DNA of 64,000 nucleotides, taken from assembly GCA_946699065.1 (NCBI GenBank), contig CAMPDV010001791.1, positions 1-64,000 on the forward strand, given 5' to 3'. The notes beneath the pieces are model-generated. The model was not told the DNA's origin. It saw nothing but the letters and a program-made list of their open reading frames with translations, and did no database searches. The translations under genes were made by a program, and so were the position numbers. This stretch comes from Loxodes magnus. Lineage: Eukaryota > Ciliophora > Karyorelictea > Loxodida > Loxodidae. Shown piece by piece: positions 1 to 62,871 of this stretch (its first letter is position 1; every line of letters starts with the position of its first letter).

Positions 1-1195
1 AAAAATAATAAATCAAGGCAAGATATTCTATAATAATTAGCTAACAAATAAATAAATGTTTATAAATAAGATATTTTTTAGATAAAAATAATCAGAAATA
101 TATTAAAATTTTTTTTTCGTTTATTTAAACGGATAAATAGATAAAAGATTTATAAAAAACTTTTGAAATTTAATTTAAATATTTTTATATAGAAAGTTCG
201 TAAAATTTAATATTAAATAGGAAATAAGAAATATTCTTTAATTTTTTTTCTTTAATTAAAAAATTTATTTAGCTGAATTAAAGTTAAATTAATAAACTAT
301 TGCTTTAAAATCTTTAAAATAATTATTTTTATGAAATTTACTTGTAATTTTTTTAGTGTGATTGAGGGAAATTTTTCATAAATGATTTTTATTTAATTTC
401 TTTTGAATTTATTTTAAATTATATATTATAATTAAAAAAATATATTATACTTATTTCAACTTATAAAAGCATTTTAATTATCTTTAAATCAAATATTTAT
501 CTATTTTAAGAGAACTTCTTTTTATTTTAAAGTTATAAAATATATATAAATTAATAATATTTAAAATTAAAAATTAAACAATTCGAATATTTGTAGTAAA
601 TAAAAAAGTTATAAATTTTAATTAAATTTTTAATATCTTAATTTAAAATAAAAAATAGAAGTATACTATTATTTAAATTAATATTATATTTTTTATTTTA
701 AGAAATTTAGAATTTTATTTTAATTTTTCTTTGATAATTTAATTAGATTTAATTTTATAAAATAATTTTAAATCTTAAATTTTACTAAAAATTTTACATA
801 TTTTAGATTAAAAATCTGAAAATATTTTAAATATTATGAATAAATATATATAAAATTAATTGCCTAAACTTATCTTAAGAAAAATAACAAAACTATTTGA
901 AAATCAAAAAAATTTAAATATAGTTTATTTTAATAGTTAATTTAAAAAAATTTAAAATATTATGCAAAAAAATATGTTCAAATGTTTTTCAAAGAAATAA
1001 AAAGAAGCTATAAACATAGTCTTAAAAGCATATCTAAAAATAAATTTATGAAGTTTGAAATATATAAACTCTCAAACTTAATAAACAGAATTAAAAAATA
1101 AATTATTTGATTAAATTGATTGAGATAATTTTTGAAAGACTATTTAAAAAATACAAAAAATTCTGTTGTTTAAAGTATAAAATTTACAGAATGTA
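1..1195 (-). repeat. Block C, inverted copy 1 (partly off the window edge)
   Basis: This very AT-rich stretch matches the reverse complement of 40650-42840 over its whole length, with scattered substitutions and indels. It begins before the window. It lacks the 848-bp insertion that splits the other copy and so preserves an empty target site at 382-395. Around 1015-1090 the plus strand encodes a Lys-rich peptide (KHSLKSISKNKF...) that is conserved in the second copy, so part of the block may once have been coding. The right edge lies about 50 bp upstream of a tRNA-Met gene. No other gene was recognised. Confidence 0.7.
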
Positions 1196-7760: not shown

Positions 7761-8519
7761 TTATTTAATTTATAATATCCTTTATATTTATAATTAAATT
7801 ATGCTATAAGTAAATTCTATTATATTTTGTAAAAATAAATAATTAAACTTATGCAACTACTAAATTTATAGTAACAATATCACTTTTTTATTTCTAATAT
7901 TTTAGGAATGATAAAAATGAATTTCCTTGTCTAAGTTGTGCAAATTAGTTATATTCATTTATTTATCTTTAATTTTAATATAGAAATATTTATTTATAGA
8001 CGAATCTGAATAAGCTTAATTATGTGATGATAAAATAATTATTTAAATATATTTCTGACTAATTAAATAATCATAACTTTAAATTTTTATTTATTTTTAT
8101 ATAGTTTTTAATGTTTTATTTTAAAAGAATTTGACATTCGAAGTCTAAAAATTAAAGATTATAAAAAATTAATAATGGAAGTTATGATTAACGTTAATAA
8201 GCTTTTAGTAAATAGAAAAATAAATCTAGGTAAAGATAAAAATATTTGTTGAGATAAAAAGTCTATTTTAGCATTTTTTTAACTTAAAACTAAGATATAA
8301 CTAAATTAAAGGAAAATATCCTGGTCTGATTTTTCATTAAAATTAAAATTTTACAATTAGCTGTATAAAAGTCTTTAAAAATTAATTTCATAAGATTTTT
8401 TATAAATTTTTTATCTATTTATTAGTTTAAATAAGTGAAAAAAGCAATAAAGTTTAATATATTTTTATTTAGTTTTTATCTCAAAAATTTCTTTTATTAA
8501 AGCCATAAATTAATAAAAA
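7761..8519. repeat. AT-rich flank of tRNA-Ala, partly similar to block C
   Basis: The stretch from about 8330 to the tRNA resembles 42640-42870, the region next to a truncated tRNA-Ala. Examples are the shared runs around 'tttataaattttttatctatttattagtttaaat'-like sequence and the sequence just before the tRNA 3' end. The similarity is imperfect. The rest of the interval shows nothing recognisable. Confidence 0.4.
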
Positions 8520-8592
8520 TGGAGAACTTGGGTATCGATCCCAATGCCTCTCGCATGCTAAGCGAGCGCTCTACCATTTGAGCTAGATCCCC
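8520..8592 (-). tRNA. tRNA-Ala (AGC anticodon)
   Basis: A 73-nt cloverleaf on the minus strand. Anticodon stem CTCGC/GCGAG closes loop TTAGCAT, giving AGC. The D arm is GCTC...GAGC and the T arm is TTGGG-ATCGATA-CCCAA. The acceptor GGGGATC against GTTCTCC is imperfect, with a G-T and a T-T. There is no intron. A truncated copy lies at 42868-42918. Confidence 0.92.
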
Positions 8593-27737: not shown

Positions 27738-30072
27738 GTGTTAAATAAGCCTTGGGTATTAATTTTAATCGTACAAGGTTTTTCACTGATTGAAGCTTAT
27801 AATTCATCTTTTTCAAAACTTTATCTTAACTATTTTTTTTCTTCGATGAATTGCAATGAATTCTATTCTTGAGCTTAAATACTTACATTATTTTCATTTT
27901 CTTCAGATTTTTCCCTATCTTAATTATTTTCAGTTTCTTCAATTATTTCCCTACCTGCACTATTTTCAATTACTTCAGTTATTTGCTTACCTTCGATATT
28001 TTTGGTTTGTTCAACTTCTTCAATTATTTCTCTACCTATATTATTTATATTTACTTCACATTTTTTCTGCCTTCATTATTTTCAATTTCTTCGTTCTTTT
28101 CCCTGCCTGTATTATTTTCCATTTCTTCAGTTCTTTGTTACCTTAGATATTTTCAGTATTTTTAGTATCTTCAGTTTATTTCTACTTTCATTAATTTCAA
28201 TAATTTCTGTTCTTTCCCTTCGATATTTTCAAAATCTTCAGATTTTCTCTTTCCTTATTTTTTTCAGAAGCTTCTTTGCTTTTATCATATTCTGGATTTT
28301 TTTCTCTTCTTCAGCTTGCTCTAAGTATTATAACCCTTCTGCTATCGTTAATTTGCTCTCTTTTAAGTTTCTATTTTCCTAATTGATATTCTAAAGTACA
28401 TTTTTTTCCTTATATGCTAGCTACAACCTTACTAAGACTGAACTACTTAAAATTAATTTTATATTACACCACTCTCAGAATACTAACTTTGTAACTTTTA
28501 AATTATATACTCACCACTTTTTATCTCCTCAAATACATATGGAGATAGAAAGTTTTCATATTGAATGCATTTATCTTCTCTTATCATGCTAATGAACTAG
28601 AAAATTTTCTTTTAATCTTAGCATTCCCAAATTTAAATTTCTAGCTTTTAATTAAGTTTTCTTCTACTTAATTATTTGCTCTATCTTCACCTTCCTAGCA
28701 CTGTAAAATACTACCGTATCCTCTGCCTTAAAATGATTGGTAAATGATTTTAATTAGTCAAGCTTCAGATCTACGAAACGTTACTTTGTTTTGAAAAGTT
28801 TTTACTTTTAATTGGCTTGGCTATTGTTGATTTGCCTTGCTGGAAATTTGTGTTGGTGCTTTTGACCATAAAGTAGTTTTGGTTTGAACTAGAGTGGTTT
28901 AAGGTGTTTATTGTTGTTTAAATATATTATCCTTTATAAAGCAATTTAGTTAGTTAGATAAGGATTTAACTTCTTTTTAAGACTATTGTGTTCTTATTTA
29001 TCTACAATTCTTTAAGATTGAAATTAATCCTGGTCGTTTAAGAACTGATTAGATAGTAGCTTCTTTGAGTTATTTGTTATTATTGAGGAAGAGACTTTAG
29101 AGTTTAGTTGCTAAATCTTTTGTATAGTAATTTACTCTATGACAGCTATTCTCCTCGCTTAGAATGATCTGACTTGCAGTTATAAAGAGGATCTGAGTAG
29201 GTTTGATTTAGTATCTAGCATTAAGTTTGTTAGTGGAAGTTAAAGGAAATGTTTGAAAAGTATGGTTGAAATAGTGTTGATTCTAGGAGTTTATAAAGGT
29301 ATTATACTTGTTACATTTAAAAGCTAGATGCCTTTGCTGAATAATTTGTATCTGAATTAATTGTTTACACTAGTTAATTTGATACTCCTAATTACCTATA
29401 AATTTAGCAGTTGTTGATTAAATTAGTAAAATAAAAGGAAAGTATCTAGAGTTAATGATTGATATTAAACTATTAAATTAAATAAAAAATATTATATCCT
29501 AAAAGCATAATAACCATATAGTCTATAAGCATTAAATCAAACTTAAATTATTTCAATTATATTAGGTAAATCTCTACCTTTATAAGTATAAGACTTAATA
29601 AAGGCTCATTATACCAAACTTTCTTTTTAACCTCAAGAAACTATCACTACTATCATTGATAGTTATATATAACAGATAAGGCTTTTCTTATGAAAGATAA
29701 CTTTTCCAAAATAAATCACTTATTTATAAAAGTTTAACCAAAAATATAGATATAAAAGCTATAGATAGCTTATCTAAGCAGATCATTTGGAACCTATATA
29801 TGCTTAGGATATTATCAAACAAAATAACCATTCTACAACTTTCTTAATTTGCCCTTTTTCAGGCCATTTTTCTCAAGAGTACAAGTAAAGAAGCATATTC
29901 TTATTTTAAGTTCCTAGAGTCTCCTCTCTTAAATTTAAAAGAAACTTCCTTCTGAAAGAAAGATATGGGTGTTCAGTCCTTCATTGTTTCTAATAAGCGG
30001 AAAAAGCGATAAAGCTGGAATAGCTTAACTATATCACGATCAATTTGACTAGTTAGTAGTTCTTAGAAATTA
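27738..30072. repeat. Block A, copy 2
   Basis: Nearly identical to 11859-13992 except for an expansion of about 190 bp in the tandem repeat near 27900-28170. The right end, at the sequence TTCTTAGAAATTA, passes directly into block B. In copy 1 the same point continues into unrelated sequence, which defines a breakpoint shared by both. Confidence 0.9.
27870..28170 (-). repeat. 36-bp tandem repeat encoding 12-residue Glu/Asn-rich repeats
   Basis: Repeats of about 36 bp with TTATTTTCA...CTTCAATTATTTCCCTACC-type units. Read on the minus strand they encode units like GREIIEETENNQ and DREKSEENENNV, in phase with the coiled-coil protein of block A. Copy 1 has fewer units. The Phe/Leu/Tyr-rich plus-strand frames over this region are antisense shadows. 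Confidence 0.6.
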
Positions 30073-32300
30073 TACTTAGAGTAGATACTAAAGCTCTAAG
30101 AATAGGTTAAGAGTTACTGATATTAGAAAAGTATGAGTAACAGAATAAAAAGCAAAAATATAAAGCAGCTAGCTAAAGGAATAAGGAAGAGAGATTATTA
30201 TAAAATAGCATGGAAAAATAGAAACCTTAGATTGTTTTTATGTTGATGAAAAATACCAAAAATTACAGTTAAGCTAGCAGGTTGGATAGATTGCTGGTCT
30301 TCTAGGTGGGGAAAGTGAAATAACAAGTTATTAAGAAAGCTCGTATGAAGAAATTAAAATACCTTTAAAAATGATTATAGGTATTTTAAAAAAATGCTAT
30401 TACCTCTAAAAGTAGAATATCAAGGTAAATTCTGGAGAAGTGCAGAATTCTTCTTAATTTCCTACATATTAGCTAAGATACATTTCATCCATGAAAATCT
30501 GCATCTCACCTTATATCTATAAAGAATAAAAAAAGTATTATAATCTTTATAGCTACATGTATGAAAAAGCTTTATCATTATCATAGCTGAGAAACAGAAA
30601 TAAACAAACTTAAGAATAGCACGAATAACAGCTCTAAAGTAAGAAGAAGAGCTCAATGGAAAAAAGGTAATTAATTCGACATTTCTGAAAATACTTCAAA
30701 GAATTAAAATTATTCAGATTAGTCTAAATCTTAATTTCAGGGAATAATTTAAAGTACTAGTAATCAATAAAGTAGAAGCAGCTTTATTAATCAAGGAATC
30801 TAAACTTAAGAATTTTTTAATGGTTATTTAAGATGAAAAATAGTCATCAAGAAGTAGAATTCTAAACAGATGTTTAACAGAAGATATTTAAAAAAATTAA
30901 AAAAGATCTGCTGCCTTTTTTATCTTCAGGCGGATATTTAAATCAAGGAAAGATATATTTCTGATAAACTTTCGGAGCAGAGAAATTTAAATGTACTCAA
31001 CAGCTTTTTCAATCATGAAAAATAAATTAAGATACAGTAAATGAGTAAAAATAACTGAAAGTTAGTAAGGCAAAACAGCTAAAAATAAGGGAAATAAACG
31101 TTGCTATCCTTGGAGAAATAACTAACTGAAGTCTTTAAAGTTTGTCTGAAATTAACGAGTCATTAAAGGAATTAATTTTATAAAGGTAATATGGAGAGGT
31201 GACCAAAATGCTGTAAGCAAGTAGAAGCATCTTGAGGATAAATTTTTATCTCCCTTCAATTTTCCCTGCTTTCTATCTTCAGATCTGCTCAAAGACACTA
31301 GATAAAGTAAAATGATAAATTTAGTAAAATGCAAGAATGATCAAGATATGAGCGACAGGTGGAACAGTAATCTAAGTAAAAGCGAAAAATAGTAAAATTA
31401 AATTAATCTAAAGGATAAAAAAAGCCAGGCTATTCATAAAATTTCTAATTAAAAAAACTTATAAATCCAATCTAATTTAGAAAGCTATTTAAGCTCTAAT
31501 TTGCAATGATAATAAGTAAGCAGAAAAGCCTCAAGTTTTAAAAAATCTACTATAATACTAGAATAAAAAGGAATCAAGCGACGCCAAATGATTATAAGAA
31601 TTTAGAGAATAAATCCGTTCCTCCTACTAACTTGAGCTAAGCATCTTAGAAATCAGGGTTAGATAGGAAGAAGAAAAGTGTCTTAGATTAAAAAAATGAT
31701 AACAAAAAAGAGGTTAATAGTAGAACTTGGCTCAAGAATATAAAATCAAACAAGAAAAGCCTAAATGCAAAGTTCCTAGTTTACCTATATCAGATAAAAA
31801 TCCAAAAAACTAAAGCTATAAAGGATCAACAAATCACTTTAAAAGAAACTTCAGTATCTAGAAAAATATCTAAAGTATATTGACTAAACGACGAAAGTAA
31901 GTACTTATACAGAAAGTACTAGAAAAGTTTAAATTATTGAAGAAATAATTAAAAAGCAGTTTTTTAAATAAAGGAAATTGAGATAATCTGCCAAGGAAAA
32001 AAGAAATAAAAGGGAAAAGAGTTGTCAAGGTCGAAGAGTAACATGTAAAGGAGTTTATATTAATCTGATTATTAACTCTAAAATTAGTATGTAAAGATAT
32101 TTTAGAACTTTTTAAGATAGAAAGAAAGTGACGATTGCCATAATCATTTTTGAAAGTCCGAAAAAAAGAGATTAAATTAGTTCACTCAACAAAAAAAGAA
32201 CCAAAGAAGATTTTAAACTCAGAGATGCTTTTGAATAAAAGTGTTAACAGTTAGAATGAAAGGTGAAGTGGATTCAATAAGCATGATAATCTAATAGAAC
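30072..32300 (+). pseudogene. Degenerate plus-strand coding sequence in block B
   Basis: Several plus-strand stretches look protein-like (LDCFYVDEKYQKLQLSQQVG, KVEAALLIKESKLKNFL, GDQNAVSKQKHLEDKFLSPF, KCKNDQDMSDRWNSNLSKSE), but they lie in different frames. Comparison with copy 3 shows single-base indels, for instance an extra A near 57965 and length changes in A runs near 58230. This argues that at least one copy is broken. No family is recognised. The segment starts right at the block edge. Confidence 0.4.
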
Positions 32301-34227
32301 TACTCATCAAATTTATAGAATATAATAAAACCTATTTCATGGACCAAAACGTGCTTAGACTATAAAAATAATTTTCTCATTTTTAAAAGCTTAGGAATGA
32401 GTTAACTTAAATCTGAATAGCCATTTTCTTGACATCAATAAATCAGACATATTTCACTTCAATTACTTCTTCAATCGGACTATTAACTCCTGTCGTAAAT
32501 CTCTCACTTTTTTATATGCAAAGCAAAATTATTCCTCTTTTATATTGGGTAAAGAAATAATAAAATCGTTGATCTCTTTGGCAGCAATTCTGTTAGGACC
32601 GAATTTTAAGTAATAGTAAGAAAAAAATTTATTTTTTAGCCTGAGATAACAAAGTTTTGGATGAAACTCTAAATGTTAAGTATTTAACTATGAAATTAAG
32701 CTTAGCAGGATTATAAAAACTTACGCTTATAAACTATATAGACTGATTAATAAAAACGGCAGCTTAATTTGCTTCTGTTTAGTGAAAATCCCTGTACATT
32801 TGAACTAATAATAAACTGCTGATAAAATTAAAAGCTGCTATAAGCCTTTTATTCTATGATAATTATAAGCAAATAATAGAAGCAAGATATAACTTGATTG
32901 CAATAGGCATAGCTAACTCTTCTTAGTGTATCGAATTAGAAAATTCTTCAATTTAAGAGCTTTAACCAAATAATCACACCTAGAAATATGAGAAAATGGC
33001 CCAATATGTTGAGTATTTTGTTAAGGTTTATCATCATTTAATCTTCCATGAGAAGAATTTAACCCCGTACTTCTGAATCTACTTACTTTGATAGTATATA
33101 GAATAAACTCAGTTTTGTTCTTTTATATCTTTAAAGCTTGGCAAACTCTAAATAAAATAGACATTCTTCTTATTTGTAGGTTCAATAGTTCTTTCTAAAA
33201 TCTTTATTATAACTGTAGGTTTTAGGTAACTTACCATCTTCTATTTTTTTAATTTACTTGGCAATTTAGAATCTACCTTTTCTTTAGTTCCTATCTTGAT
33301 ATAGAAGATCTTATTTAAAAAGAAATGCATTTTAATATTTTTGGAGTTAATATGCAAATAAAGCAATGGCTAATAAAGAGCAAAAATCTAAAAGCGAAAA
33401 AACAGTATTTTAAGGGATATTTTTGATGATATGGTTTTACTTTTGGTTAGCAATTTGAGTGACTATATTGGTAGTAATATTGGAAGTAATTTAATTTTGT
33501 TAGAATTCTTCAGTTAATTACTCAGTATTAGTGTAAGTTTGAATCAGTTAAAAGGAGGTATTAGTTTGGTTTAAGTGTAGATAGTTTATTTTAATTTTAG
33601 ATAGTATTGATTATTGGAATAGGAAGTAATGAAAATTGGTTATTATTGGTATTTCACTTATAATAACTATAATAGCTTTATAAGATTAACTAAAATATGC
33701 TTTAGACCTATCATTCTATATGGTATTAAATGTTGTAATTAATATCTATTCAATACCCCATTAGTAACCTTCTACTCTTTATTCTCCTAATACATTTTTC
33801 TACTTTTAATCATTCATTTATTGTAGCCTTTAAAATATCATCCAATCCTTACAGTATTAACAATTAAGAGCTTTTAACTAAAGACATATGTATCTTATCT
33901 CTAACGATATTCCTTATCTATTAGCATTACAGAACTATCCTAAAAGAGTTGCAACATTTCTTATATAATACTAAGTTTCTTCAAGGTATTGAAGTTCTCT
34001 CACTTTGAAATAAAAAGTTAGATTTTAATCCTCAATTGAGCTTGTTTTCAGACTCGTTTATTAAGCTAGATATGAGATAAAATTGCTGATCTCTTTTATA
34101 TAATCTGAGTTGAGATTTTTTTCCAGATTTTCCCATTTCCCGGTGGGAAGAATTCCATCGCTTGCTACTTCAGTTGCTATTAGTTAACATTTTTCCAGAT
34201 ATTCATTCTTATTTCTTTCTATTGAGG

Positions 34228-34269
34228 ACATTTCCGTCATAAATGTCAAGTGCTGTTGCAAATGTAGCA
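34228..34269 (-). other. CCHC zinc-knuckle motif in block B copy 2
   Basis: The minus strand encodes C-x2-C-x4-H-x4-C (CYICNSTWHLWRKC) with both Trp encoded by TGA, preceded by a basic stretch. In copy 3 the same motif reads CYICNRTWHLWRKC. There it is joined in frame to a longer coiled-coil segment (LENNIWIMQEQDKKNW, LDSMLKLIEENLQKP), whereas a 4-nt insertion breaks this in copy 2. It resembles Gag-type nucleocapsid knuckles. Other frames here are also coding-like, so this could be coincidence in copy 2. Confidence 0.5.
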
Positions 34270-34687
34270 TCTTTTTCTTGCTCTAGGAAATGGCCTTCCC
34301 CGTTTCTCTATTTCGATTGGAGTTCCTTCCTTATGAAGGCTTCTACAGGTTTTCTTCTATTAATTTAAGTCTAGAATCTAATTTTACTCAGTTTTTCTGT
34401 CTTACTCTTGCATTATTCAAATATTATTCTCTAAACTTGTCATTTGCTCATAAACTCCGACTTTAGCTCTTCGGTCTACCATATGGACTTCATCATCATC
34501 TTATCAAATCCTGACTTAATACAAGTATCTCTTTCTCCTGGGAGTTTAATTCCTATTCGAGTTTTTTTATGTTTTTAATAAGTTGATAAATCAGCTGTTT
34601 CAGACTTGTTTTAAGATCATAGAGAACTGTTGAAAACTCTAATTTTAAACAAAAGGACAAATCTATAACGCTTTTACTCCATAATTT

Positions 34688-41548: not shown

Positions 41549-42403
41549 TCAAAAAATTAAATAAAAATCATAATAATAATAATAGTAAACTAAATGTTAA
41601 AAAAATGTTTTGGCATATTCTGGACTTTCAACCAGTTCCTGCCGCCATTTTTTTGACTCGGATGGATACCGCGACCATTTTTTTTATGTGGATGGTTACC
41701 ACTGATTGCTTTCAAAAGAGCGCATAGGCAGTTTTTATTTGTATATTCCTGTTGGAGTTATCCATAGAAAATTCAATGCTCTTCATGTTCTTTATTATAC
41801 CTTTTCATTTAATTTTTTTCATTCTCAGCATCTTCTTAATAAGTGGTAATTGGATTGGCAATATCAACATTATTTTTTAATCTTCTTTTGACTAATATGT
41901 TTTTTAAATAGCTTATTTTCAATATTTTCTAGTCTTTTAATTAAGTTATTATCATATCTAATTTATTTCTGTTCTTAAGCACTTTATAATGGAGTGAAAG
42001 TTTTTTCAATTTCCATCTTTGATGTACGTTAAGATTTTTATTGCGATTACATTCAAAGTTGTTCTTCCGTTATTACCTTGTTTTCTATTAGCTGATTCTT
42101 AAGGATTTCCATTTCATTATTTTGCACGTCAATGTTTGTTGTAAGTTCCCGTATTAATAAGTCTTAATTATATATTGTTTCTCCGTATCGGGATATAATT
42201 TTTTACATTTGTTCGATCTTTTGTCGTAGTTCCTCTGAAATATCTGATTTAAATTCCTCAGCTTGCAAAGTTCCGATCATTATTTTACCTTATGAGTCGG
42301 AACTTGATTCTTCTTATTGTTTTGCTTTTTATCGAAGAACTTAAGCAGCCTTTTTCCGAGCATTTCTTATTTGATTTTTATTTAATCTAATGTTCTGCTC
42401 CAT
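41549..42403 (-). CDS. Gag-like protein with coiled coil and CCHC knuckle (element 1)
   Basis: A 284-aa frame with TAA/TAG=Gln and TGA=Trp. Residues 50-115 and 150-170 are coiled-coil-like (SEELRQKIEQMQKI, NEMEILKNQLIENK, LIKRLENIENKLFKK). A KMEIE motif sits near 130, and a basic segment leads into a zinc knuckle CWYCQSNYHLLRRC (C179, C182, H187, C192) whose first Trp is TGA. The C-terminus is Trp/Ser/Lys-rich. This architecture is that of a retroelement nucleocapsid (RNA-binding) protein. The first in-frame TGA lies just past the target-site duplication, so the stop seems to be supplied by flanking DNA. No protease or reverse transcriptase is present. A related protein lies at 49.3-50.2 kb. 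Confidence 0.82.
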
Positions 42404-42419
42404 CTTTTTTTTTAATATC
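41572..42419 (-). mobile_element. Gag-only retroposon, full-length copy (element 1)
   Basis: An 848-bp insertion flanked by a 14-bp direct repeat TAAATAAAAATCAT (41558-41571 and 42420-42433). The unoccupied site is preserved once at 382-395 in the inverted block C copy, so insertion and target duplication are shown directly. On the coding (minus) strand it starts about 16 nt before an ATG and ends with an ATTATTATT-like tail next to the duplicated target. It encodes one Gag-like protein and nothing else. Variable-length target duplications and a microsatellite tail resemble LINE-type insertion. Confidence 0.8.
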
Positions 42420-42867
42420 TAAATAAAAATCATTTATGAAAATTTTCTCTTAAATATAGTTAAAAAGAATTCTAAGTTGAGTTCATAAAATTAATTATTT
42501 TCAAATTTTAAAGCAATATTTTATTATTTAGCCTGAATTTAGCTAAATGTTTTTAAATAATCAACCAATAAATTTTAATTAAGATCTAAATAAAATAATT
42601 AAAAATATTTCTTATTTTCTATTTATGAATTTTAAATTTTAGAATTTTCTGTATGAAAATATTTAAATTAAATTTCAAAAGTTTTTTATAAATCTTTTAT
42701 ATATTTATCAGTTTAAATAAATGAAATAGCGAAAAGTCTTAATATATTTATATTAAAATTTAGCTAAAAAATATCTTATTTATATATGTTTAATTTAATT
42801 GTTAGCTAATGATTATAGAATATCTTGCGTAATTTATGATTTTTGTAAAATATTGAAGCAATAAAAA

Positions 42868-42918
42868 TGGAGACTTGGGTATCGATCCCAATGCTTCTCG
42901 CATGCTAAGCGAGTGCTC
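42868..42918 (-). pseudogene. Truncated tRNA-Ala (3' half)
   Basis: Matches the 3' half of the tRNA-Ala gene at 8520-8592 (anticodon arm with AGC, variable loop, T arm, acceptor 3' strand), with one base missing near the 3' end. Similarity ends within the anticodon-stem/D-arm junction at about 42918, so the D arm and 5' acceptor strand are absent and it cannot fold. It marks the block C boundary. Confidence 0.85.
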
Positions 42919-42949
42919 TTCAAATATGTGATTTTTTGTTTCTAAATCA

Positions 42950-46709: not shown

Positions 46710-46820
46710 TTTCAGCACTATATTTGATTTTTGGTGTCTAAATGGAAATTTAAAATTACTGAATATAGACAGTGAATAATCTCCTCACCCTTATAAATTG
46801 TATTTATAAAATATCTAAAA

Positions 46821-47401
46821 TAATAATAATAATAATATACTTAAAGTTAGTAGAGTTTTGCATTCTCTGGAATTGCAACCAGTTCCTGCGGACAGTTTTT
46901 TTAACGTGGGCGTGATCCACGACCTTTTTATTAACTGGAAGGTTACCACTGTAACCGTTCAAGTGGTCTTGCAAAAAGCTTTTATTTGTAGATCCCTGTT
47001 GGAGTTATTCATAGTTTATTGAGTTGTCTCCATGTTCTTTTCTGCTCTTATTCGTTTATTTTCTTTCATTATCAACAGTTTTTTAAATATGTTGATTTGA
47101 TTTGCAACATCAACAAAGTTTGCATTATTGTCTTTATTTAGTTCTTTTTTATGATAATTTATTTTCTATATTTTCTAATCTTTTAATGAAACTTGTAGTA
47201 ATCATTTCTTTTTCTGGATTCAATTCTGTTTTTAATTATATTGGTATTTTTTCTATTTCCATTTTTGTGTCGTATTTAAAATTTTATTATGATTAAGTTA
47301 AGAGTTATTCTTCCGTTATTAATTTGCTACAAATAAGTTATCTTCTAAGTATTAGTAATTCGTTGTTCTAATCTTATATGTTACTCATTAGTTCCCGTAT
47401 T
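46821..47401 (-). mobile_element. Gag-only retroposon, 5'-truncated copy (element 2)
   Basis: A 581-bp insertion flanked by a perfect 14-bp direct repeat TAAAATATCTAAAA (46807-46820 and 47402-47415). On the coding strand it begins inside the Gag frame at ACGGGAACT, equivalent to about codon 85 of element 1, and ends in an (ATT)6-like tail next to the duplicated target. The 5' truncation, target duplication and 3' microsatellite tail are the classic signature of target-primed reverse transcription. The Gag frame is broken by indels. Confidence 0.82.
46860..47401 (-). pseudogene. Decayed Gag-like coding sequence of element 2
   Basis: Homologous to the C-terminal two thirds of the element 1 protein. 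The zinc-knuckle region reads CWCCKSNQH but then shifts frame by one base before the last Cys. The segment RQLNKLWITPTGIYKQKL matches LNFLWITPTGIYKQKL of element 1, and the C-terminal QELV..PE.AK is kept. Short plus-strand frames over it are shadows. Confidence 0.75.
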
Positions 47402-47415
47402 TAAAATATCTAAAA

Positions 47416-57414: not shown

Positions 57415-60400
57415 ATACTTAGAGTAGATACTAAAGCTCTAAGAATAGGTTAAGAGTTACTGATATTAGAAAAGTATGAGTAACAGAATAAAAAGCAAAA
57501 ATATAAAGCAGCTAGCTAAAGGAATAAGGAAGAGAGATTATTATAAAATAGCATGGAAAAATAGAAACCTTAGATTGTTTTTATGTTGATGAAAAATATC
57601 AAAAATTACAGTTAAGCTACCAGGTTGGATAGACTGCTGGTATTCTAGGTGGGAAAAGTGAAATAACAAGTTATTAAGAAAGCTCGTATGAAGAAATTAA
57701 AATACCTTTAAAAATGATTATAGGTATTTAAAAAAAATGCTATTACCTCTAAAAGTAGAATATCAAGGTAAATTCTGGAGAAGTGCAAAATTCTTCTTAA
57801 TTTCCTACATATTAGCTAAGATACATTTCATCCATGAAAATCTGCATCTCACCTTATATTTATTAAGAATAAAAAAAGTATTATAATCTTTATAGCTACA
57901 TTTATGAAAAAGCTTTATCATTATCATAGCTGAGAAACAGAAATAAACAAACTTAAGAATAGCACGAAATAGCAGCTCTAAAGTAAGAAGAAGAGCTCAA
58001 TGGAAAAAAGGTAAGCCATTCGACATTTCTGAAAATACTTCAAAGAATTAAAGTTATTCAGATTAGTCTAAATCTTAATTTCAGGGAATAATTTAAAGTA
58101 CTAGTAATCAATAAAGTAGAAGCAACTTTATTAATCAAGGAATCTAAACTTAAGGATTTTTTAATGGTTATTTAAGATGAAAAATAGTCATCAAGAAGTA
58201 GAATTCTAAACAGATGTTTAACAGAATATTTTTAAAAAAACTTAAAAAAGATCTGCTGCCTTTTTTATCTTCAGGCGGATATTTAAATCAAGGAAAGATA
58301 TATTTCTGATAAACTTTAGGAGCAGAGAAATTTAAATGTACTCAACAGCTTTTTCAATCATGAAAACTAAATTATGATACAGTAAATGAGTAAAAATAAC
58401 TGAAAATTAGTAAGGCAAAACAGCTAAAAATAAGGGAAATAAACGTTGCTATCCTTGGAGAAATAACTAACTGAAGTCTTTAAAGTTTGTCTGAAATTAA
58501 CGAGTCATTAAAGGAATTAATTTTATAAGGGTAATATGGAGAGGTCACCAAAATGCTGTAAGTAAGTAGAAGCATCTTGAGGATAAATTTTTATCTCCCT
58601 TCAATTTTCCCTGCTTTCTATCTTCAGATCTGCTCAAAGATACTAGATAAAGTAAAATGATAAATTTAGTAAAATGCAAGAATGATCAAGATATGAGCGA
58701 CAGGTGGAACAGTAATCTAAGTAAAAGCGAAAAATAGTAAAATTAAATTAGTCTAAAGGATAAATAAAGCCAGGTTACTCAAAAAATTTCTAATTAAAAA
58801 AACTTAAAAATCCAATCTAATTTAGAAAGCTATTTAAGCTCTAATTTGCAATGATAATAAGTAAGCAGAAAAGCCTCAAGTTTTAAAAAACCTACTATAA
58901 TACTAGAATAAAAAGGAATCAAGCGACGCCAAATGATTATAAGAATTTAGAGAATAAATCCGTTCCTCCTACTAACTTGAGCTAAGCATCTTAAAAATCA
59001 GAGTTAGATAGAAAGAAGAAAAGTGTCTTAGATTAAAAAAATGAAAACAAAAAAGAGGTTAATAGTAGAACTTGACTCAAGAATATAAAATCAAATAAGA
59101 AAACCCCAAATGCAAAGTTCCTAGTTTACCTATATCAGATAAAATCCCAAAAAACTAAAGCTATAAAGGATCAACAAATCACTTTAAAAGAAACTTCAGT
59201 ATCTAGAAAAATATCTAAAGCATATTGACTAAACGACGAAAGTAAGCACTTATACAGAAAGTACTAGAAAAGGTTAAATTATTGAAGAAATAATTAAAAA
59301 GCAGTTTTTTAAATAAAGGAAATTTAGATAATCTGCCAAGGAAAAAGGAAATAAAAGGGAAAAGAGCTGTCAAGGCTGAAGAGTAACATGTAAAAGAGTT
59401 TATATTAATCTGACTATTAACTCTAAAATTAGTATGTAAAGATATTTTAGAACTTTTTAAGATAGAAACAAAGTGACGATTACCATAATCATTTTTGAAA
59501 GTCCGAAAAAAGAGATTAAACTAGTTCACTCAGCAAAAAAAAAACCAAAGAAGATTTTAAACTCAGAGATGTTTTTGAATAAAAGTGTTAACAGTTAGAA
59601 TGAAAGGTGAAGTGGTTTCAATAAGCACGATAATCTAATAGAACTACTCATCAAATTTATAGAATATAATAAAACCTAATCCATGGACCAAAACGTGCTT
59701 AGACTAGAAAGATAATTTTCTCATTCTTAAAAGCTTAGGAATGAGTTAACCTAAATCTGAATAACCATTTTCTTGACATCAATGCATCAGACATATTTCA
59801 CTTCAATTACTTCTTCAATCGGACTATTAACTCCTGTTGTAAATCTCATTTTTTTATATGCAAAGCAAAATTCTTCCCTCTTTTAAATTGGGCAAAGAAA
59901 TAATAAAATCGTTGAATTCTTTAGCAGCAATTCTGTTAGGACCGAATTTTAAGTAATAGTAAGAAAAAACTTTATTTTTTAGCCTGAGATAACAAAGTTT
60001 TGGATGAAACTCTAAATATTAAGTATTTAACTATGAAATTAAGCTTACCAGGATTATAAAAACTTACGCTTATAAACTATATAGACTGATTAATAAAAAC
60101 TCCAGCTTAATTTGCTTCTGTTTAGTGAAAATCCCTGTACATTTGAACAAATAATAAACTCCTGATAAAATTAAAAGCTGCTATAAGCCTTTTATTCTAT
60201 GATAATTATAAGCAAATAATAGAAGCAAGATATAACTTGATTGCAATAGGCATAGCTAGCATTTCTTAGTGTATCAAATTAGAAAATTCTTCAATTTAAG
60301 AGCTTTAACCAAATAATCACACCTAGAAATATGAGAAAATGGCCCAATATGTTGCGTATTTTGTTAAGATTTAGCATTATTTAATCTTCCATGAGAAGAA

Positions 60401-61571
60401 TTTAATCTCGTTCTTCTGAATCTACTTACTTTGATAGTATATAGAATAAACTCAGTTTCGTTCTTTTATATCTTTAAAGCTTGACAAACTCTAAATAAAA
60501 TAGACATTCTTCTTATTTGTAGGTTCAATAGTTCTTTCTAAAGTCTTTATTTTAACTGTAGGTTTTAGGTAACTTACCATCTTCTATTTTTTTAATTTAC
60601 TTGGCAATTTAGAATCTACCTTTTCTTTAGTTCCTATCTTGATATAGAAGATCTTATTTAAAAAGAAAAGCATTTTAATATTTTTGGAGTTAATATGCAA
60701 ATAAAGCAATGGCTAATAAAGAGCAAAAATCTAAAAGCGAAAAAACAGTATTTTAAGGGATATTTTTGATGATATGGTTTTACTTTTGGTTAGAAATTTG
60801 GGTGGCTATATTGGTAGTAATATTGGAAGTAATTTGAATTTTGTTAGAATTCTTCAGTTGATTACTCAGTATTAGTGTAGGTTTGATATAGTTAACGGAG
60901 GTATTAGTTTGGTTTAAGTGTAGATAGTTTAGTTTAATTTTAGATAGTATTGAATTATTGGAATAGGAAGTAATGAAAATTGGTTATTGTTGGCATTTCA
61001 TTTATAATAACTATAATAGCTTTATAAGATTAACTAAAATATGCTTTAGACCTATCATTCTATATGGTATTAAATGTTGTAACTAATATTTATTCAATAC
61101 CCCATTAGTAACCTTCTACTCTTTATTCTCCTAATACATTTTTCTACTTTTAATCATACATTTATTGTGTCTTTAAAATATCATCCAATCCTTACAGTAT
61201 TAACAATTAAGAGCTTTTAACTCAAGACATATTTATCTTATCTCTAACGATATTCCTTATCTATTAGCATTACAAAACTCTCCTAAAAGAGTTGCAATAT
61301 TTCTTATATAATACTAAGTTTCTTCAAGCTATTGAAGTGCTCTCACTTTGAAGCAAAAAGTTAGCTTTTAATCCTCAATTGAGCTTGTTTTAGACTCGTT
61401 TATTAAGCTAGATATGAGATAAAATTGCTGATCTCTTTTATATAATCTGAGTTGAGAATTTTTTTTCCAGATTTTCCAATTTCCTGATGGGAAGGATTCC
61501 TTCGCTTGCTACTTCAGTTGTTATTAGTTAACATTTTTCCAGATATTCATTCTTATTTCTTTCTATTGAGG

Positions 61572-61613
61572 ACATTTCCGTCATAAATGTCAAGTTCTGT
61601 TGCAAATGTAGCA
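61572..61613 (-). other. CCHC zinc-knuckle motif in block B copy 3
   Basis: The minus strand encodes CYICNRTWHLWRKC, C-x2-C-x4-H-x4-C, with TGA=Trp twice. It is preceded in frame by a basic run (KKRRRAFPRARKR) and a coiled-coil stretch (LDSMLKLIEENLQKP, QMTSLENNIWIMQ). This copy keeps about 90 codons in one frame. The following coding-like sequence (NKNEYLEKCQLIATEVASDG) is in another frame, reminiscent of a gag-pol style junction or simple decay. Confidence 0.55.
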
Positions 61614-62871
61614 TCTTTTTCTTGCTCTAGGAAATGCCCTTCTCCGTTTCTTTATTTCGATTGGAGTTCCTTATGAAGGCTTCTACAGGTTTTCTTCTAT
61701 TAATTTAAGCATAGAATCTAATTTTGCTCAGTTTTTCTTGTCTTACTCTTGCATTATTCAAATATTATTCTCTAAACTTGTCATTTGCTCATAAACTCCG
61801 ACTTTAGCTCTTCGGTCTACCATATGGACTTCATCATCATCTTATCAAATCCTGACTTAATACAAGCATCTCTTTCTCCTGGGAGTTTAATTCTTATTCG
61901 AGTTTTTTTATGTTTTTAATAAGTTGATAAATTAGCTGTTTCAGACTTGTTTTAAGATCATAGAGCACTGTTGAAAAGTCTAATTTTAAACAAAAGGACA
62001 AATCTATAACACTTTTACTCCATAATTTATGAATTCAAAAGGATTATCTACAGTGACCACTCCTCTTCTTACAAAAATATCAATATCAGGAATACATTTT
62101 ACTACATTAGAGCCTTTCCGTAATGTCAAAGGTCTCAATATTTTTCCTGATACACTGACATTAGGAGATCTTTACTCTCTAGTAGGGCTCTTAAGAACTT
62201 TTAATTTAATTCAAGGATTATTCATAATATTTAGCTGGTTCAATTAACCTTCATATGCTACTAAGTAATATATTACACTACTTTTAGACAATTTAAAATT
62301 TTAATTATGTAAATTCTACTCTCTTGCATCTTTTTCTAAGTTAAAATCTAATATCATAGAAGTAAGTATTAATTTGAATGCTACCTAGAAAACTAAATTT
62401 AAAAGGGAAGTTTTATCTGCTAAGTATAAGGAGACTAGGACTTAATAATCTGATGAGAACGTTTCTAAAGGTAAATAAATTAACTATATTCTACCTTTAT
62501 TAGGTTCACCACGATTAAAAAAAATACAAAATTTTGTTGTTAAAATAGTCTAGAAATATTTCTTGCTTTGTCTGATCTCTTTGGTCACTTTTTTCTCAGT
62601 TTTTTAAATAAAAATTTATTACCTTTACTCTCAAAATTCTTGTATTTCTTTCCGAAGGCTAAAGTTAAAAGGGAATAGAATAAAATCCAATTATTGTGAC
62701 AAATTTCACAATCGAATTAAATTTTTCTACTTAAAAATATAATTTGTCTCAGTCATGTCTTCAGATTTTTCCAATTTCTAACCAGATTAACAACATAGAG
62801 GCAGGATTACTCTGAGACCTTAACTTCAGCACCCTAGTTATATTCTGGTACCGATTGAGAACCCTCAAATA

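Follow-up and report, generated by a model that had tools for sequence, protein, structure and literature searches.

A candidate family of compact gag-only non-LTR retroposons in the ciliate Loxodes magnus

How might a retroposon that encodes one small protein and no enzyme move and persist? The question is raised by a locus of the karyorelict ciliate Loxodes magnus, in a stretch of 64,000 nucleotides (contig CAMPDV010001791.1, positions 1 to 64,000) that was analyzed as a whole and is called here the window. A first-pass annotation, made from the letters of the window, had described an 848-bp unit encoding a coiled-coil plus CCHC protein. It had proposed that the unit is a very compact retroposon, mobilised in trans by a reverse transcriptase encoded elsewhere. 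We followed up this proposal in the window and in the genome assembly.

The insertion and its empty site

The insertion comprises the following features.

41572..42419, minus strand (RNA sense): candidate gag-only retroposon copy, 848 bp, with genome matches 99-100% identical
41558..41571: target-site duplication on the 3' side of the element, exact TAAATAAAAATCAT
42420..42433: target-site duplication on the 5' side of the element, exact TAAATAAAAATCAT
41572..41583, minus strand: (ATT)n tail of the unit
382..395: single-copy empty target in an inverted duplicate of the host locus, the duplicate spanning 1-1193

The perfect 14-bp repeats on which the first-pass annotation rested are indeed present, as two exact copies of TAAATAAAAATCAT around the 848 bp. 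The RNA strand of the unit is the minus strand, with the 5' end near 42419 and the tail at the low-numbered end. The annotation had also claimed that an inverted duplicate of the locus retains the target in single copy, and this holds. Within the window, the reverse complement of TAAATAAAAATCAT is found only at 382-395. When the flanks were joined without the unit and with one copy of the repeat, their alignment with 1193-1 (minus strand) crossed the junction, with 77.9% identity over 1323 columns and 148 gap positions, and TAAATAAAAATCAT was single and ungapped at the junction. Hence, the inverted duplicate represents the empty site.

Two further contigs (loci L009 and L010) carry the insertion of the window, with the same target duplication and flanks 97.8-99.8% identical, and are probably haplotypes or recent duplicates of it. 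Pieces of the flank are also found elsewhere in the window: the right flank at 42860-42919 shares 95% identity with 8512-8572, a match to part of the tRNA-Ala gene region (8520-8592), and a further partial copy of the insertion's flank (77%) lies at 8280-8493.

Young copies and older relatives across the genome

To place the unit in the genome, we searched the assembly (705,730,643 bases in 7843 contigs) and scored the best 40 of 2256 first-look candidates. All 40 cover 839-848 of the 848 bases with 99-100% identity. Twenty of these matches were fetched with about 1 kb on each side, giving with the window 21 loci, which correspond to 19 independent insertions since the window, L009, and L010 have common flanks. 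As the best-scoring matches were chosen, the full length of the young copies that we read reflects a biased sample.

Exact target duplications of 13-18 bp flank 19 out of 19 independent young insertions. In a control of 342 pairs of mispaired flanks the longest repeat was 12 bp, which excludes chance as the source of the family's duplications. Each young insertion ends in (ATT)n, as had been anticipated, with a repeat number that varies between copies, and the heads begin in, or shortly before, a run of A. No copy in the 21 loci lacks target duplications or extends past its proposed ends into a larger element bearing pol; the ends are the target duplications. The copies are dispersed single insertions, without telomeric head-to-tail arrays. 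Near one of them (L017) a piece of a LINE lies about 300 bp upstream, outside the target duplication.

The young copies differ very little. Eight of the 21 loci, at different sites, are identical to the majority sequence over their aligned length, and the remaining 13 have 1-3 differences from it. A 49-bp stretch from the 3' end of the unit has 143 exact matches in the genome, and its reversed control pattern has 0. These near-identical copies at different sites, together with the 143 exact 3'-end pieces, indicate that the family was active recently.

Older members were also found, one of them in the window.

46821..47401, minus strand: older 5'-truncated relative (old_w), about 70% identical, with an (ATT)n tail and a frameshift inside the knuckle
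46807-46820 and 47402-47415: target duplication of this relative, TTTTAGATATTTTA

This copy is truncated within its own target duplication, and thus provides the 5' truncation that the first-pass annotation had proposed to look for. We then sampled 200 kb, taking a single 10-kb stretch per contig from contigs 1-20, and found six further older relatives in four of these 20 stretches (L031a, L031b, L032, L041, L043a, and L043b), i.e., a density of about 30 per Mb. If this small sample, with one place per large contig, were typical, the genome would hold around ten thousand copies, a figure that is uncertain. With one mismatch allowed, target duplications were accepted in three of the seven diverged relatives (old_w, L031a, and L043b), and an acceptable one was not found in the other four. 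The relative L031a is 67% identical to the young majority sequence, and the two represent two subfamilies. In L031:1-1071, the 3' end of a LINE (type E, see below) is closely followed by a 5'-truncated relative of the unit. We judged this to be probably a nested or neighbouring insertion, because the same LINE is found in L041 and L038 without a unit-like end.

The open frame, its protein, and the 3' end

The coding features and the 3' region of the unit are as follows.

41591..42403, minus strand: open frame of 271 codons, ATG at 42403, under NCBI table 27 (TAA/TAG = Gln, TGA = Trp)
42089..42235, minus strand: heptad (coiled-coil-like) stretch, residues 57-105, from an a/d heptad score compared with shuffles
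41828..41869, minus strand: CCHC zinc knuckle CWYCQSNYHLLRRC, residues 179-192, its spacing present in 0 of 20,000 shuffled proteins
41572..41670, minus strand: 3' terminal region conserved as nucleotides, not codons, with a hairpin stem CTGG/CCAG at 41620-41635

The coding frames of the window are sensible only when TAA and TAG are read as Gln and TGA as Trp. This is the karyorelict code, given for L. magnus in the genome paper with UGA as the only stop reported (PMC11441545). With the standard code, no ORF of at least 150 aa is listed anywhere in the window, whereas table 6 gives 223 stop-to-stop frames of at least 150 aa, and under table 27 the minus frame of the unit is open end to end. 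The earlier claim of a coiled-coil plus CCHC protein thus stands under the karyorelict code (around 271 codons, with heptads and knuckle) and fails in the standard one. As nearly any frame is open in such a code, openness alone means little and selection becomes the test.

Of the 34 overlapping 35-residue segments tested in the majority protein, 3 have a heptad score with p ≤ 0.01. The knuckle has the spacing C-x2-C-x4-H-x4-C, which recurs in L031a and L031b. Searches with the protein gave no Pfam domain at E 0.01, no match at E 0.01 among 824 candidates in a protein search, and three matches in the PDB, the best at E 0.72. Neither an endonuclease nor a reverse transcriptase was found in the unit (no Pfam domain at E 0.01; 848 bp between the duplications), and none of the four tRNA genes identified by ARAGORN in the window lies within it.

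To assess selection, we compared the majority sequence with L031a, the one well-aligned pair on which the dN/dS values rest. Their frame is colinear over 267 codons without an indel, with a pN of 0.30, a pS of 0.70, a dN of 0.38, and a dS of 1.98. The pN/pS ratio is 0.43 in this frame, against 0.88 and 1.00 in the other two; its bootstrap range is 0.33-0.51 for codons 1-235, and it is up to 0.64 for codons 236-267. Every TGA codon found in either sequence is Trp in both (6/6, two of them as TGA in one and TGG in the other), and positions with TAR in either are Gln in both at 15 of 38. When the seven relatives were pooled, each of the five parts before nt 750 had most of its substitutions at third positions, with only a slight excess between nt 346 and 546, and substitutions were nearly even past 750. 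The codon bias is clear in old_w, moderate in L043a and L043b, and weak in L031b, L032, and L041, and several older relatives have frameshifts. Since subfamilies that are 67% identical retain a colinear frame of 267 codons at a dS of about 2, the predicted protein is, from these sequence comparisons, kept by purifying selection over long times.

With substitutions spread nearly evenly across codon positions past nt 750, the last 100 bp are thus conserved at the level of the nucleic acid (RNA or DNA) and not of the codons. Of the four pairs in the CTGG/CCAG hairpin of this region, two show double changes (CG to UA in one sequence; UA to CG and UA to AU in one sequence each), with a negligible overall covariation term (0.03), and the folding energy of the 3' end is unremarkable (z of -1.19 and -0.84). 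In the young family, codon 207 is the final in-frame TGA, with none from there to the end of the element. This codon is TGG in L031a, and codon 214 shows the opposite exchange, which means that the two are read as Trp. Past the last unique 3' bases of the 21 loci, an in-frame TGA comes next after 25-529 nt, in the flanking DNA. A frame joined straight to a 3' UTR by the loss of pol would look like this, and so would a frame using the flank or another signal to stop.

Enzyme donors, origin, and rival explanations

The genome is rich in possible donors of the enzyme. An RVT_1 profile gave 3403 candidates genome-wide, with 150 out of 150 scored lying above the cut-off, and the genome authors report around 2,700 RVT_1 copies as well as autonomous LINEs of 5-6 kb with EN and RT, rnd-1_family-27 and -19 (PMC11441545). 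The latter, non-LTR elements of the same genome, are the presumed enzyme donors of the unit, which has neither EN nor RT. Among the loci that we read, LINE A (L056 then L048, contig 20) has a CCHC ORF1, EN (1.4e-10), and RVT_1 (1e-28). LINE E (L038) has EN (7.5e-9) and RVT_1 (8.9e-29), and the CCHC spacing is absent from its locus. We inspected LINE 3' ends in L048-L055, L017, L029, L031, L038, and L041 (L053 is without a recognisable end) and distinguished five types.

Type A: 3' tail (TTTA)n, in L048, L050, L052, and L055
Type B: in L051
Type C: TTAA-like repeats, in L049
Type D: TTAA repeats (L054, L017) or (ATT)n (L029)
Type E: its own TCTATAATTG-type hairpin, in L031, L038, and L041

These types end in different hairpins and short tails (TTTA, TTAA, ATT), as if recognised separately. 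The first-pass annotation had proposed to look for a LINE with the same 3' end as the unit, and none of the five types has it. The last 130 bp of the unit, blasted against L029-L055, gave an E below 1e-6 for relatives of the unit only; in L048-L055 no match was better than E 0.59, and the LINE ends of L029, L031, L038, and L041 were unmatched. The nearest by its tail is LINE D in L029, with its (ATT)n end. Among the matches listed, and judged by eye, no place with the exact 3'-end piece lies within 8 kb of a place with RVT_1. Homology to the unit's protein was undetectable in the two LINE families compared, in the ORF1 of LINE A and in the sequence preceding EN in LINE E.

The unit and its relatives show variable target duplications, a constant 3' end with a simple-repeat tail, 5' truncation, and an empty site, as expected of non-LTR elements (TPRT), and the unit encodes, like HAL1, an ORF1-type protein only (one selected frame in 848 bp between the duplications). 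We consider it likely that they form a compact, LINE-dependent, gag-only family of non-LTR retroposons, a long-lived lineage working like HAL1 or HeT-A. Its movement must be in trans, since no copy that we read carries a reverse transcriptase. An RNA of about 0.85 kb would encode the one small protein, coiled-coil-like and CCHC, followed by the conserved 3' region and (ATT)n. The endonuclease and reverse transcriptase of a LINE elsewhere would nick the target and copy this RNA after priming at its (ATT)n end, and the unit's own protein would bind the same RNA, mainly in cis. That the protein is kept under selection although the element has no enzyme suggests a preferential action of the protein on its own RNA, and such binding would in turn explain why the frame is maintained there. 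Hence, the target duplications, the tails, the old truncation, the absence of pol, and the selected CCHC protein all bear out the compact, trans-mobilised retroposon of the first-pass annotation. Its origin as half of a particular LINE is unproven, because the LINE 3' ends inspected are unmatched and the two LINE ORF1 regions compared have no detectable relation to it.

Known systems resemble the unit in part. HAL1, which encodes ORF1p only and had several origins from L1, is likewise a non-autonomous LINE relative with only an ORF1-type protein (PMC5753468). The unit differs in being far shorter (around 0.85 kb), in having (ATT)n instead of poly(A), in its ciliate code, and in having no parental LINE among the types seen. 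The ORF1p of L1 shares with its protein a coiled coil, and has an RRM/CTD where the unit's protein has a CCHC knuckle. SINEs are also short, tail-dependent, and LINE-mobilised, but in the unit a protein frame is under selection, and ARAGORN reports no tRNA gene there. HeT-A is several kb long and the unit less than 0.9 kb. At Drosophila telomeres, HeT-A is, like the unit, a non-LTR element that lacks pol and has kept Gag, its enzyme being proposed to come from another element (PMC4467039). However, HeT-A serves telomeres (PMC4467039), whereas the unit lies at dispersed sites with target duplications.

One might instead regard the unit as a strict half-LINE of the HAL1 type, in which an internal deletion removed the pol of a living LINE, selection acts in the autonomous LINE, and compact copies are reseeded in each subfamily. 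We hold this to be possible, though doubtful. Near nt 750 the coding signal declines and the nucleotide-conserved 3' end starts, as would be seen at a deletion joint between ORF1 and 3' UTR, from which a missing stop is also expected. Moreover, HAL1s arose several times from L1 (PMC5753468), and LINE A, with one CCHC in its ORF1, shows that CCHC-bearing LINE ORF1s are present in the genome. Yet both subfamilies have the compact layout end to end at a dS of about 2, so the same deletion would be needed twice, which speaks for a compact lineage and makes a hidden master less likely. In addition, in the two LINE types compared for ORF1 (A and E), neither LINE A's ORF1 nor the part of LINE E that precedes EN is detectably homologous to the protein of the unit, and no LINE 3' end seen matches that of the unit.

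The unit might also be a SINE-like passenger whose frame is open by chance, since the code has no dedicated stop codons and leaves almost any frame open (see the 223 frames of table 6). This is improbable given a pN/pS well below 1 in this frame only, Trp codons kept across TGA and TGG in six out of six cases, a CCHC spacing never met in the shuffled proteins and recurring in L031a and L031b, and no tRNA gene reported in the unit by ARAGORN. The terminal direct repeats and the ciliate host could further suggest that the unit is a cut-and-paste transposon or an internally eliminated sequence of the ciliate kind. We give this hardly any credence: the target duplications of the 19 independent insertions have no fixed length (13-18 bp), the (ATT)n tail at one end varies in repeat number, 5' truncation is seen in an older copy, and the genome paper reports that no canonical eliminated sequences were detected in L. 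magnus (PMC11441545).

Within the preferred reading of a LINE-dependent gag-only family, a stronger version is tentative: the family may be an independent class of gag-only retroposons of around 0.85 kb, with perhaps around ten thousand copies, which descended in compact form through several subfamilies while selection kept a predicted RNA-binding protein on its own RNA. If so, ribosomes may, without an in-frame UGA near the end, run to the 3' end of the RNA, and this could hold the protein on it. Selection on the protein of an enzyme-less element is a natural test of the cis-action of LINE ORF1/Gag proteins, for which engineered elements are the usual approach. Very small, abundant, and active in recent times, the family gives a marker of recent insertions, and may explain part of the interspersed repeats of L. 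magnus, mostly left unclassified by the genome authors (PMC11441545). The main text of their paper does not contain the terms SINE, nonautonomous, zinc, or CCHC (PMC11441545), and among the papers listed for Loxodes retrotransposons and ciliate non-LTR elements, none describes a family of this kind in its title or abstract.

Similar frames occur elsewhere. The window has a 4.6-kb repeat (30072-34659 and 57415-62000, copies 96% identical) with a minus-strand CCHC frame (RARKRCYICNSTWHLWRKCP...) that resembles the knuckle-W-P-G-I-(Y/W)-K layout of the unit. It was rejected as a relative bearing a reverse transcriptase, with no Pfam match in 30072-34659 (plus strand) or 57415-62000 (minus strand). 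Another frame, at L034:6900-7500 (plus strand), combines a coiled-coil-like stretch, a CCHC, and FYPSGGQIYKP. A Pfam scan of the 2.5 kb downstream of it found no RT, and this frame suggests that there are further gag-only families in the genome.
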